Virus record (IMG/VR): IMGVR_UViG_3300025087_000067
Span: 1-60,805 of that record
Length of the DNA stretch: 60,805 nucleotides
Origin: a virus
Reading direction: 5' to 3' (one strand)
The notes below the pieces were generated by a model. It saw nothing but the letters and a program-made list of their open reading frames with translations, was not told the DNA's origin and ran no database searches. Made by a program: the position numbers and the translations under genes. Shown here in pieces: positions 49,113 through 54,751 of the stretch; the first letter of the stretch is position 1; every line of letters begins with the position of its first letter.

Positions 49113-49445
49113 ATGAAAAACCACGAACGCCCAACGGTTGGCGAGCGCATGAGCATCGCGCGGAAAATACGCGGAATGACGCAGGCGGAACTTGCGCTGA
49201 AAATAAAAGTGCATCCGGCGCAAATTTCAGAATGGGAAATATTCCGGCCCGTGCCGTTGCATCATCTCCCGGCGCTCGCCGAGAAACTCGTGGTGTCCAT
49301 CGAATACCTCATGGGCCAGAGCGATAAACCGTGGCCGTTCCAGGGCGCGGATGCGATTGATGTGCAGGGGCTCACGGCGGCGGACATCGAGTTGCTAAAA
49401 TCTATCGCGCGTGCAATGGCCGAACGAAATAATCCCCATGAATAA
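49113..49445 (+). CDS. XRE/Cro-CI-like repressor
   Basis: A 110-residue protein behind AAGGAGAG. The N-terminal HTH is of the XRE class: VGERMSIARKIRGMTQAELA, IKVHPAQISEWE and LHHLPALAEKLVVSIEYLMG. Such proteins set lysogeny or early gene control. It lies in the plus-strand gene run and overlaps the next gene by eight bases. Confidence 0.8.
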   Translation: MKNHERPTVGERMSIARKIRGMTQAELALKIKVHPAQISEWEIFRPVPLHHLPALAEKLVVSIEYLMGQSDKPWPFQGADAIDVQGLTAADIELLKSIARAMAERNNPHE

Positions 49446-50427
49446 TCCTAAATTAAAATCCCCGTTCCCCTATTTCGGCGGGAAATCCGCCGTTGCGCCA
49501 GAGGTCTGGCGGCGGCTCGGGAACTGTAAAAATTATATCGAGCCGTTTTTCGGATCCGGAGCCATGCTGCTGGCGCGCCCGGACGAACATGAATGGTGGG
49601 ATAATATCGAGACCGTGAATGATATTGACGGCATGATCGCTAATTTTTGGCGTGCGGTGCAGGGTAGCCCCGAGGCTGTCGCGCGGTACGCCGATTGGCC
49701 GGTGAATGAGAACGATCTCCACGCCCGGCACGCCTGGCTACTCGCCGAAAAACAATCTCTCCGGGCACGGCTAGAGGGCGATCCTGAGTGGTTCGATCCC
49801 CGGATTGCGGGCTGGTGGGCGTGGGGGATATCCTGCTGGATCGGCAGCGGCTGGGTATCGGGCGTGGGACCCTGGAATGTGGTGGCCGGTGAACTCAGAA
49901 AATCCGATAAAAACGAGGTGGGAATAAATCGCCAACGTCCCCATTTCGGCGGTGCCGGGCAGGGCGTGCATCGCAAGCTCCTCACGGGCGGACTGCACGA
50001 TTATTTTCAAGCGATGCAAAACCGATTGCGCCGGGTCCGTGTGTGTTGCGGCGATTGGTCGCGCATCACGGGGCCAGCGGTGACGACTAGACGCGGAATG
50101 ACCGGCGTGTTTCTCGATCCACCGTACTCGGTTTTAGCAGCGCGGGTTCCCGGCCTCTACGCCCACGATGATCTGGATGTGGCGAACGATGTCCGTGCCT
50201 GGGCTATCGAGCATGGCGAGAATCCATTGATGCGGATCGCGCTGTGCGGATACGAGGATGAGCACGAGATGCCCAGTGGCTGGGCGTGCTACGAGTGGTC
50301 GGCACAGGGCGGCCTGTCGAATAATTCTAAAATAAAAAATAATAATAAACATCGAGAGCGGATTTGGTTCTCTCCGCATTGCCGCAGCGGGCATCAAAAA
50401 ACAATGTTAGAGGATTCCGATGAATAA
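49438..50427 (+). CDS. D12-class adenine DNA methyltransferase
   Basis: ATG 49438, 329 residues. Motifs: FPYFGGKSAVA (SAM binding start), YIEPFFGSGAML and the catalytic DPPYS (Asp227-Tyr230). It methylates adenine N6 (Dam type), probably to shield phage DNA from restriction. The gene has a large middle domain (residues about 90-200) for target recognition. Confidence 0.85.
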   Translation: MNNPKLKSPFPYFGGKSAVAPEVWRRLGNCKNYIEPFFGSGAMLLARPDEHEWWDNIETVNDIDGMIANFWRAVQGSPEAVARYADWPVNENDLHARHAWLLAEKQSLRARLEGDPEWFDPRIAGWWAWGISCWIGSGWVSGVGPWNVVAGELRKSDKNEVGINRQRPHFGGAGQGVHRKLLTGGLHDYFQAMQNRLRRVRVCCGDWSRITGPAVTTRRGMTGVFLDPPYSVLAARVPGLYAHDDLDVANDVRAWAIEHGENPLMRIALCGYEDEHEMPSGWACYEWSAQGGLSNNSKIKNNNKHRERIWFSPHCRSGHQKTMLEDSDE

Positions 50428-50851
50428 AATGAAACACAGATTCATCCTCCCGATAGCGGCGGTGCCGTGGCAGGCCCCGCTTGTCGGCAGACGCGGCGCG
50501 CGATCGCCGGGAAAATACTCAGCCTACCGGGATGAGATCGCGCTACGAGCCCGGACAATCTACCGCGGCCCGTGCTACGACGGCGTGCCTATCGCCGTGG
50601 AGTATCTGTTCGTGCTGCCGCGAACCACTGGGATGCTGGTACCGTGCGGTCCCCGTGATCCCGATACCGGGAATCTCGAAAAGGGATTAGCAGATTCTCT
50701 GCAAAAAATCACATGGTGCTCAGATAAATGGCTGGTCTCGATTCGCGCGACGAAACGCTACGTCGAGCCTGGCGAGGAACCGTATATCCACGTGGCGTTC
50801 GAGCCCGTGGTGTTTAATTTTACAGAGAAACTCGATGAGGATAAATCATGA
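50420..50851 (+). CDS. rusA: RusA-like Holliday junction resolvase
   Basis: A 143-residue protein with the RusA outline: PDTGNLEKGLADSLQKITW, then SDKWLVSIRATKRYVEPGEE. The acidic pair around PDTGN and the later SD/K motif correspond to the metal site of RusA, though the usual second Asp of PDxDN is Gly here. It may cut branched DNA before packaging. Confidence 0.65.
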   Translation: MNKMKHRFILPIAAVPWQAPLVGRRGARSPGKYSAYRDEIALRARTIYRGPCYDGVPIAVEYLFVLPRTTGMLVPCGPRDPDTGNLEKGLADSLQKITWCSDKWLVSIRATKRYVEPGEEPYIHVAFEPVVFNFTEKLDEDKS

Positions 50852-52669: not shown

Positions 52670-53020
52670 ATGAAAAAGAAATTAAATAACATCCCGGCCT
52701 CATCCGCCATGCCCTGGAGCGAGGGGGTCAAGACGATCCGTGCCTATTTCCAGGGCGACCGCGGGCAGCCGCTGAAGCTCTCGATGGCGTGCTTGCTCCT
52801 CAATCAGGATGTCGAGGTCGCCATTAAATCTACGGGCGAAAACACGGCGATGATTCACGTCCGGCACCACACCACGAGAAACCGAAACGCGCTCGCGACC
52901 CTGATTCTATTGGTCAATCAAGCGTTCGGCGGCAAGGGCCAATGGGAAAAACGATTGATCGGCGACACCCTAAAAATGGACCACGAGCGCGAGTATGCGG
53001 GGATGGAAGTGAGGGTATGA
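52670..53020 (+). CDS. Hypothetical protein, 116 residues
   Basis: Starts after GAGAAGACC. Beta/alpha outline, with CLLLNQDVEVAIKSTGENTA and RNRNALATLILLVNQAFGG. It ends by overlapping both the methyltransferase start (53017) and, directly, the alternative frame (53021). Function unknown. Confidence 0.5.
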   Translation: MKKKLNNIPASSAMPWSEGVKTIRAYFQGDRGQPLKLSMACLLLNQDVEVAIKSTGENTAMIHVRHHTTRNRNALATLILLVNQAFGGKGQWEKRLIGDTLKMDHEREYAGMEVRV

Positions 53021-53889
53021 ATGGCCTGGCTCTATGTACCGGCATTGGGGGAATTGAGCTCGGCTTGTCCATTGCCGTCCCCAGATACCGAAGTGTGTGC
53101 TACGTGGAGAGGGAAGCCTATTGCGCATCCCTACTCGTGGCGCGGATGGCGGAAGCGGCGTTGGACGTCGCGCCTATTTGGTGCGATCTTGCAACCTTCA
53201 ATGGCCGACCGTGGCGTGGCCTTGTGGATATCATCTCTGCGGGACTCCCGTGCCAGCCCTACAGCGTCGCCGGAAAACAACTCGGATGGAACGACCCTCG
53301 ATGCCACGACGTTGTCCCACACGCACTCCGGATCATCGAAGAAGTGCAGCCCTCCATGGTATTCCTCGAAAATGTACCAACCTGGATTACTGGAGGATAT
53401 TTTCGACCAGTCGGAGATCGACTATCAGAATTGGGTTACGCGATTGAGGCAGGATTGTTCTCAGCGGCGGAAGTTGGCGCAAGCCACCGACGAGAGCGAT
53501 GTTTTGTCTTGGGCTACACCGCAGGCGCACGACTGCAAAAATGGGAGCGTGGATCGAGTGGGGAGATTCGGGACGATTGCGGGATGCCGGAACCTGAACG
53601 ACGAGGTGTGGAACACTCCAACCGCGAACGATATGCGTCAACGGGAGGGAACGGCGACGGGAAACAGATTAAATTACCCTGGCCTTTTCCGCCAGGCCCA
53701 GGCGGCGACTGGAACGGAATCGCCGCTGACCTTGAACCCGCAATTTGTCGAGTGGCTTATGGGATTCCCAATCGGGTGGACCGATTGCGAGCGCTCGGAA
53801 ACGCCGTGGTGCCCCTGGTTGCAGCGTATGCGTTTAGAACTCTCGCGGCTGCTGCGGGAATAAAACTATGGGAGATATCTCATGGGTGA
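53017..53889 (+). CDS. C5 cytosine DNA methyltransferase
   Basis: ATG 53017 overlaps the previous stop (ATGA); 290 residues. Motif I is ALCTGIGGIELGL; motif IV is GLPCQPYSVAG with catalytic Cys79; motif VI is ENVP (Glu118); motif VIII is ASHRRERCFVLG; motif X is LRALGNAVVP. All key residues of an m5C enzyme are there. The target-recognition part is short. Another 280-codon frame overlaps almost the whole gene. Confidence 0.9.
   Translation: MNGLALCTGIGGIELGLSIAVPRYRSVCYVEREAYCASLLVARMAEAALDVAPIWCDLATFNGRPWRGLVDIISAGLPCQPYSVAGKQLGWNDPRCHDVVPHALRIIEEVQPSMVFLENVPTWITGGYFRPVGDRLSELGYAIEAGLFSAAEVGASHRRERCFVLGYTAGARLQKWERGSSGEIRDDCGMPEPERRGVEHSNRERYASTGGNGDGKQIKLPWPFPPGPGGDWNGIAADLEPAICRVAYGIPNRVDRLRALGNAVVPLVAAYAFRTLAAAAGIKLWEISHG
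53021..53863 (+). CDS. Overlapping +1-frame protein inside the methyltransferase gene
   Basis: Starting four bases after the methyltransferase start, this frame is open for 280 codons. The second half looks like a protein: NWVTRLRQDCSQRRKLAQAT, SWATPQAHDCKN, VWNTPTANDMRQ and LNPQFVEWLMGFPIGWTDCE. I recall these motifs (W-TP-A-D and LNP-FVEWLMGFP-GWT) from phage proteins annotated beside cytosine methyltransferases. It could be real double coding, or a fusion product by frameshift. The long frame alone is not proof. Confidence 0.45.
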   Translation: MAWLYVPALGELSSACPLPSPDTEVCATWRGKPIAHPYSWRGWRKRRWTSRLFGAILQPSMADRGVALWISSLRDSRASPTASPENNSDGTTLDATTLSHTHSGSSKKCSPPWYSSKMYQPGLLEDIFDQSEIDYQNWVTRLRQDCSQRRKLAQATDESDVLSWATPQAHDCKNGSVDRVGRFGTIAGCRNLNDEVWNTPTANDMRQREGTATGNRLNYPGLFRQAQAATGTESPLTLNPQFVEWLMGFPIGWTDCERSETPWCPWLQRMRLELSRLLRE

Positions 53890-54751
53890 AAACTCGAAAA
53901 TCGAATGGACGCACCATACGTTCAATCCCTGGATCGGGTGCGCGAAAGTTTCCAGTGGATGCAAGAACTGTTATGCGGAGGTCTACGGGAACCGGTTTGG
54001 AATTATTTGGGGGCAGGAAAATAGAAAATTCACGAGTGATAATTATTGGAGCGAACCGTACCGCTGGAATCAAGCGGCGAAGAAGGCCGGTGAGCGGCGT
54101 CGCGTGTTCTGCGGATCGTTGTGTGATGTGTTCGAGCGTGGTGCGATGCAGGATTTATTCCGAGCGAAATTATTCGGGATGATTTATGGCGCGCCAAATT
54201 TAGATTGGCTCTTACTGACCAAGCGTCCGGAAAATATCCCTGAGTGCTTGCCGAGCGGCTGGTCCGATGGTTGGCCGAACGTGTGGCTTGGAACGTCCTG
54301 TGAAAATCAAGCGATGTTTGAACAGCGGGCTGAGTTACTCGGAAAAATACCGGCGACGGTTCGGTTCTTATCCTGCGAGCCGCTGCTGGAATCCATAACG
54401 TTATCCGGCTTCGATCGGTTTAACTGGGTGATCGTGGGCGGTGAATCCGGCCCCAAAGCGCGACCGATGCACCCGGACTGGGTGCGGACGATACGCGATC
54501 AGTGCCAGACCGCGGAAACGCCGTTATTTTTTAAACAATGGGGAGAATGGAATGTGTTTTATGATCGTGATCGGGACGATCCTGATTGGCGTAATATCCC
54601 GAAACTCGATAACCGGCGTGAGCGTTGGTTAAACATGGAAGGTGGGCTTGGGTTCCATGGCGACCGGGTGGTGGCGGTGCGGAATGTCGGCAAAAAAATA
54701 GCCGGGCGAGAATTGGACGGCATAATTTATGGGGAATTCCCAAATCCATAA
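53882..54751 (+). CDS. Gp37/Gp68 family (DUF5131) protein
   Basis: A 289-residue protein. SKIEWTHHTFNPWIGCAKVS with SGCKNCYAE, RVFCGSLCDVFE, NLDWLLLTKRPEN, WLGTSCEN, ATVRFLSCEPLLE and WVIVGGESGPKARPMHP are the hallmarks of the phage Gp37/Gp68 family. The Cys set resembles a radical SAM iron-sulfur motif with altered spacing. The biochemical role is not known to me. Confidence 0.85.
   Translation: MGENSKIEWTHHTFNPWIGCAKVSSGCKNCYAEVYGNRFGIIWGQENRKFTSDNYWSEPYRWNQAAKKAGERRRVFCGSLCDVFERGAMQDLFRAKLFGMIYGAPNLDWLLLTKRPENIPECLPSGWSDGWPNVWLGTSCENQAMFEQRAELLGKIPATVRFLSCEPLLESITLSGFDRFNWVIVGGESGPKARPMHPDWVRTIRDQCQTAETPLFFKQWGEWNVFYDRDRDDPDWRNIPKLDNRRERWLNMEGGLGFHGDRVVAVRNVGKKIAGRELDGIIYGEFPNP

Follow-up and report, generated by a model that had tools for sequence, protein, structure and literature searches.

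A phage C5-cytosine methyltransferase locus with two near full-length overlapping frames, probably encoding the two chains of one enzyme

The locus

The window analysed here is a 60,805-nucleotide stretch of viral DNA. It carries two reading frames, alpha and beta, that lie on the same strand and overlap along almost their whole length. The features discussed below are these:

53011..53015, + strand: GAGGG, a possible Shine-Dalgarno sequence as judged by its letters, 1 nt before the alpha ATG and 5 nt before the beta ATG
53017..53023, + strand: paired start codons ATGAATG (alpha ATG 53017, beta ATG 53021)
53017..53889, + strand: alpha, C5-cytosine methyltransferase of 290 aa with motifs I-VIII and X and without motif IX (PF00145, AlphaFold, Foldseek)
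53021..53863, + strand: beta, +1 frame, 280 aa, with motif IX and target-recognition-like modules (phrog_1008, conserved +1 frame)
53126..53239, + strand: conserved N-terminal segment of beta, residues about 36-73, PYSWRGWRKRRWTSRLFGAILQPSMADRGVALWISS, overlapping alpha between motif I and PCQ (excess conservation, NN/NS)
53539..53731, + strand: region from motif VIII to motif IX, a linker in alpha and target-recognition-like W-x-T-P modules in beta (substitution ratios, alpha pLDDT <50)
53732..53791, + strand: motif IX of beta, LNPQFVEWLMGFPIGWTDCE (L238, L246, G248 and P250 invariant in 38 sequences)
53740..53814, + strand: motif X block of alpha, AICRVAYGIPNRVDRLRALGNAVVP, sharing bases with beta motif IX (constraint in both frames)
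53807..53857, + strand: predicted C-terminal helix of beta, residues 263-279 (AlphaFold, local pLDDT about 75-86, remaining model poor)

The original prediction, made from the sequence, placed both frames exactly: alpha runs from the ATG at 53017 to a stop ending at 53889, and beta runs for 280 codons from the ATG at 53021 to a stop ending at 53863. The +1-frame segments that it singled out (WATPQAHDCKN, WNTPTANDMRQ and LNPQFVEWLMGFPIGWTDCE) are all found in the translation. It also held that two conserved motifs share the same bases, and beta GFPIGWTDCER indeed coincides with alpha GIPNRVDRLRA, which runs into GNAVVP (motif X). The methyltransferase frame was said to have all m5C motifs; this is correct for motifs I-VIII and X but not for motif IX, which sits in the +1 frame.

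Among the ten neighbours of the pair, Pfam identified phage genes only (D12 adenine methylase, RusA, DUF5131, DnaB, AAA), gave no assignment to five small ones and recognised no restriction gene. The D12 adenine methyltransferase and RusA genes are found upstream, at 49435-50848, and DnaB downstream, marking a phage replication/modification region. The DUF5131 gene (PF07505, 1.9e-80; 53882-54751) is directly downstream and overlaps the end of alpha.

Loci for comparison came from two viral scans, which yielded 53 loci by alpha and 75 by beta, and from further scans that added 80 genome contigs and more viral loci found by alpha. The alpha-found set used below comprises 131 viral loci, and beta played no part in picking them.

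Alpha, the probable catalytic chain

Alpha matches PF00145 (6.1e-28) over residues 2-173 only, and the motifs PCQ, ENV, HRRER and GNAVVP can be read from its sequence. It has what defines a C5-cytosine methyltransferase (motifs I, IV or PCQ, VI or ENV, VIII and X, and a Rossmann-like catalytic domain), except that a recognition domain and motif IX are not present in the same chain. The AlphaFold model (pLDDT 75) is confident at residues 1-175 and about 262-280 and disordered at residues 177-224 and 226-260 (pLDDT <50). This disordered stretch, 177-260, occupies exactly the position of the target-recognition domain in other C5 methyltransferases. The best Foldseek matches of the model are M.HaeIII/M.HhaI (7e-13 to 1e-12), and a profile comparison with canonical enzymes (E 5e-36) aligned over motifs I-VIII only. 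We infer that alpha is the catalytic (large) domain of a methyltransferase.

The middle of alpha is a spacer: in four loci (L009, L035, L221 and L253) many stops interrupt the alpha frame from motif VIII to motif X, yet the motif X segment and beta are intact. There the motif X piece is kept as a separate small open frame (L009:3788-4057, L221:3671-3943, L035:3311-3613, L253:3320-3652); in L009 and L221 this frame has a Met close to its beginning. Alpha and beta of these four loci may make three-piece enzymes.

Beta, the +1-frame chain

The original prediction proposed a database search with the 280-residue translation. This search returned one family, phrog_1008 in PHROG, labelled 'DNA methyltransferase' (2.2e-19), and matched no family in Pfam or NCBIfam. 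A motif IX-like stretch, LNPQFVEWLMGFPIGWTD, is found in the +1 frame and outside the alpha frame. When compared with canonical motif IX by profile, beta motif IX aligned in register but weakly (E 0.035, probability 1.5%), a match that is not significant alone. All but one of the beta proteins contain 1-9 W-x-T-P modules, mostly 1 to 7, and the window beta contains two.

AlphaFold modelled beta alone poorly (pLDDT 58, pTM 0.29), and a structure search with this model matched no known fold. A PDB profile search gave a single match, a likeness to MS2 coat protein over 29 residues, which we attribute to chance, since E is about 1.5 for each stretch taken singly. Beta looks like an enzyme subunit because motif IX and the modules at the recognition-domain site are both in beta and both missing from alpha, and its likely identity is a target-recognition (small) domain with motif IX.

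Paired start codons

The start codons of alpha and beta are paired. In the window, the alpha ATG also overlaps the stop of the upstream gene (TGA 53018-53020). Across 121 alpha-found loci with the start visible, beta starts at an offset of -2 (44 loci), +4 (37) or -5 (26) from alpha. When the alpha start was picked without reference to beta, 116/122 loci had a +1 start codon no more than 5 nt away, and 11/122 had one in +2. The commonest start form is AUGUG (37 loci), and GUGUG occurs in 5 loci; work in E. coli has shown, both in vitro and in vivo, that either form can start translation in the two frames, according to the Shine-Dalgarno distance (PMC9841429). Local RNA structure at the window starts was not significant relative to shuffles (z -0.97). 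Our guess, from the sequence, is that alpha is coupled to the upstream gene and beta is started via the Shine-Dalgarno sequence. For this clade, a late internal beta start at ENV, as suggested by M.EcoHK31I and by the shorter frames of loci L078 and L100, was rejected: 119 of the 121 loci already have an open +1 frame at the alpha start, although constraint on beta is weak at residues 1-35 and from 77 to motif VIII.

Beta sequence could also be reached by a programmed frameshift from frame 0 to +1, producing a fusion of alpha motifs I-VIII to the beta modules and motif IX alongside the alpha product. Such a fusion would place motifs I-VIII, the recognition domain and motif IX in one chain, and locus L126 is a natural frameshifted form. 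We consider this unlikely, however, as a frameshift needs neither start codons paired within 5 nt (116/122 loci) nor a +1 frame that is open and partly conserved from the alpha start (residues 36-76, NN/NS 0.32), and the fusion product would be without motif X.

Distribution and annotation

Beta is present in the +1 frame in 125/131 alpha-found viral loci. The six without a plain beta are four truncated loci, one locus with a frameshift (L036) and one fragment. From the other direction, alpha overlaps in the -1 frame at 171/171 beta-found loci (75 viral, 80 genome contigs and 16 phrog_1008 loci); 74 of the viral and 79 of the genome-contig loci are plain, and two have an additional frameshift. 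Beta was therefore never seen alone, all 171 loci having alpha one frame behind it. Homologs of the +1 protein in unrelated loci had been named as a test of the dual-coding idea: they occur in unrelated genomes but never apart from an overlapping alpha.

Matches to phrog_1008 were found in 28/399 sampled Pseudomonadota genomes and in none of 14 well-known control genomes. Named phages that carry the pair are Salmonella phage S9-5, Klebsiella phage BUCT711, Acinetobacter phage ABMM1, Stenotrophomonas phage S72, Vibrio phage 1.236.O and Synechococcus phage Ssp-JY39, and plasmid carriers are found in Leptospira interrogans, Acinetobacter baumannii and Shinella. E. coli PT62 carries a close relative of Salmonella phage S9-5. 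The annotation lists alpha alone for Salmonella phage S9-5 and Acinetobacter phage ABMM1, and beta alone, as a hypothetical protein, for Vibrio phage 1.236.O and Synechococcus phage Ssp-JY39 (L295:1505-2203, L296:1478-2593). Hundreds of phages and prophages conserve the two-frame arrangement, which genome annotation mostly overlooks.

Beta might instead be an accessory protein (an inhibitor, a guide or an anti-restriction factor) that merely overlaps a methyltransferase, and the original prediction had suggested a role in guiding or inhibiting either the enzyme or the host restriction system. Anti-restriction proteins do occur in phages, the N-terminal segment of beta (residues 36-76) has no assigned role, and no solved fold matches beta. 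Nothing in our results supports this suggestion, though: alpha has neither motif IX nor a folded recognition domain, motif IX and recognition-like modules are both found in beta, and every locus examined has the two as an obligate pair. In addition, the title of a 1995 paper cited in PMC3404938 states that M.EcoHK31I requires both of its polypeptides. We regard an accessory role as very improbable.

Selection in the two frames

Substitutions were analysed in 45 independent pairs of 75-98% alpha identity, using isolated substitutions only. The ratios below rest on simple weights (transitions counted as four times transversions) and on small counts of changes silent in both frames. Among alpha-silent substitutions, those that make a beta stop occurred once in 476 sites, compared to 1063 in 9167 for other beta-changing substitutions.

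Constraint on the two proteins is split by domain. Upstream of motif VIII, constraint on alpha is strong (NN/SN 0.08-0.12) and that on beta is clear only at residues about 36-76 (NN/NS 0.32, interval 0.19-0.51); in the first 35 residues of beta and from about 77 to motif VIII, constraint is weak or not measurable, except against stops. From motif VIII to motif IX, alpha changes freely (NS/SS 1.56, interval 0.95-2.94) and constraint on beta is strong (NN/NS 0.10, interval 0.08-0.13), with 745 beta-silent changes in 3657 sites and 89 changes altering both proteins in 4314. Both chains are constrained in the IX/X block (alpha NN/SN 0.06, beta NN/NS 0.18). The +2 frame, analysed as a control in the same 45 pairs, showed no such constraint.

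Shuffles constrained by alpha also revealed beta conservation beyond what alpha imposes, with z summed over columns reaching 70 for +1 and 36 for +2. The peaks are at residues about 37-73 (z 2.8-3.9) and at motif IX, which has z 6.7 and in which beta conservation exceeds that of alpha. Beta is therefore under selection as a protein.

Excess conservation could also reflect RNA structure or another constraint at the nucleotide level, with no second protein, and the +2 z of 36 means that part of the signal is not frame-specific. Such a constraint is refuted in the main by the substitution pattern, in which changes between VIII and IX follow codon phase (beta-silent ones free, those altering both proteins rare) and substitutions that would put a stop in beta are avoided; the window's start region showed no more folding than its shuffles. 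We consider it extremely improbable as a replacement for the second protein.

A stop test used shuffles that exchange synonymous codons while preserving the alpha protein and its codon usage. For the window alone, 4.1 and 2.0 stops in +1 were expected in the two halves and 1 and 0 were seen (P 0.017 and 0.10), the single stop being the TGA within ATGA, ahead of the beta start; on its own, the window makes an open +1 frame moderately unlikely by chance. In 39 alpha-found loci, 6 stops were seen against 75 expected from the start to ENV, and 5 against 81 from ENV to X. The +2 frame of these loci had 302 against 305 expected in the second part and a milder deficit, 114 against 156, in the first. 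As a control, 15 canonical single-chain methyltransferases (NgoMIV-associated type) had no deficit (172 seen, 167 expected). The stop deficit across the 39 relatives is decisive against chance opening.

A functionless +1 frame, open by chance or codon bias, would fit the modest P values of the window alone, but at the family level it is already refuted by the stop deficit (11 against 156) beside a clean control, by the protein-level constraint on beta and by the paired start codons, and we give it almost no credence.

The conserved dual-coding pair of the original prediction is therefore upheld: beta relatives occur in hundreds of loci, excess constraint emerged when both frames were checked (in the 45 pairs and in the shuffles preserving alpha), and stops are nearly absent from the +1 frame of relatives (11 seen, about 156 expected).

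Variant relatives

Some relatives are laid out differently. In L128 (L128:917-2710 and L128:1476-2537) and also in L129, a single frame holds both motif IX and motif X (RQLSPQFVEWLMGLPAGW...LLGNGVVP) and the W/L-x-T-P modules are still in +1, a different division of the same parts and possibly an intermediate. In L030 (L030:1252-2613) and L031, beta ends early, and a second copy of motif X lies in alpha beyond beta, without overlapping it. Single-base frame changes shift the end of beta to another frame in L126, L127, L036, L046, L048 and L049; real events and assembly errors cannot be told apart here. A second clade, mainly found by beta (L078, L100, L101, L111), has a beta of about 130-170 aa that opens only near PCQ, and which we take to be closer in size to the beta of M.EcoHK31I.

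Comparison with known systems

The nearest known system is M.EcoHK31I, which recognises YGGCCR and whose beta, of about 176 aa, is encoded inside the alpha gene in another frame from an internal start; M.EaeI is a heterodimeric C5 methyltransferase of the same kind. As published, M.EcoHK31I comprises two polypeptides, alpha with motifs I-VIII and X and beta with motif IX, and its predicted target-recognition domain is assigned to alpha (PMC3404938). It has been employed as a naturally split enzyme (PMC3439449), and the 1995 title mentioned above gives both polypeptides as necessary.

The window pair divides its motifs in the same way, as far as the description of M.EcoHK31I goes, and beta likewise overlaps alpha in another frame (125/131 alpha-found loci). 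Unlike in M.EcoHK31I, beta spans almost all of alpha and the starts are paired, the recognition region between VIII and IX is constrained only in beta, the pair is widespread in phages and prophages, and no restriction partner was recognised among the ten window neighbours, five of which are unassigned. We therefore see this family as a variant of the M.EcoHK31I kind, with the near full-length overlap, the paired starts, the phage context and the recognition region in beta as its new features.

M.AquI is also one active C5 methyltransferase made from two polypeptides, but it is split in the variable region with motifs IX and X both in the small subunit (PMC3404938). In the window, X is in alpha and IX in beta, and two-frame coding of conserved motifs is not described for M.AquI in that source. 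Type I HsdM/HsdS resembles the pair in having one catalytic and one specificity subunit but belongs to an unrelated family, with adenine methylation, a restriction complex and no dual coding. The multispecific C5 methyltransferases of the Bacillus phage SPR/phi3T type are single chains whose variable region holds several recognition modules. They too are phage-borne and modular, whereas the modules here are in a second frame, on a separate protein. Our literature search, which covered neither REBASE nor subscription papers, turned up no account of two-frame coding conserved among phage methyltransferases.

Interpretation

We think it highly probable that the locus encodes a dual-coded heterodimeric C5-cytosine methyltransferase, with alpha as the catalytic domain and beta providing target recognition and motif IX. 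In frame 0, alpha would supply AdoMet binding, PCQ, ENV and motif X, a disordered linker standing where a target-recognition domain would be; in +1, beta would provide the parts missing from alpha, namely the W-x-T-P recognition modules and motif IX. Initiation would occur independently at two start codons 2-5 nt apart, served by one ribosome-binding region in common, which would tie the amounts of alpha and beta together. The two chains would then assemble to one enzyme that methylates the phage genome, probably for evasion of host restriction. We infer translation of beta, assembly of the chains, the setting of specificity by beta and an anti-restriction role. Points that count against the heterodimer are the poor beta model without a fold match, the weak motif IX match, the weak or not measurable constraint on beta in its first 35 residues and from about 77 to motif VIII, and the published placing of the M.EcoHK31I recognition domain in alpha (PMC3404938), opposite to the assignment here.

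A broader reading, to which we give an even chance, is that these loci belong to an extensive phage family that annotation has almost entirely missed, with one enzyme's catalytic and specificity domains encoded in two frames of the same DNA. Beta would be free-standing, modular, possibly multispecific and made from ambiguous paired starts, and some members (L009, L221, L035, L253) would be three-piece. If this is true, the published placing of the M.EcoHK31I recognition domain needs revision.

Same-strand genes that overlap over nearly their full length, each under purifying selection that can be measured, are unusual in DNA phages and bacteria. In this family the overlap joins what would be two parts of one enzyme, and it recurs in hundreds of phages and prophages. 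The family may therefore serve as a test case for ambiguous start codons (PMC9841429), for the sharing of codons by two protein domains and for the engineering of split methyltransferases with exchangeable specificity.
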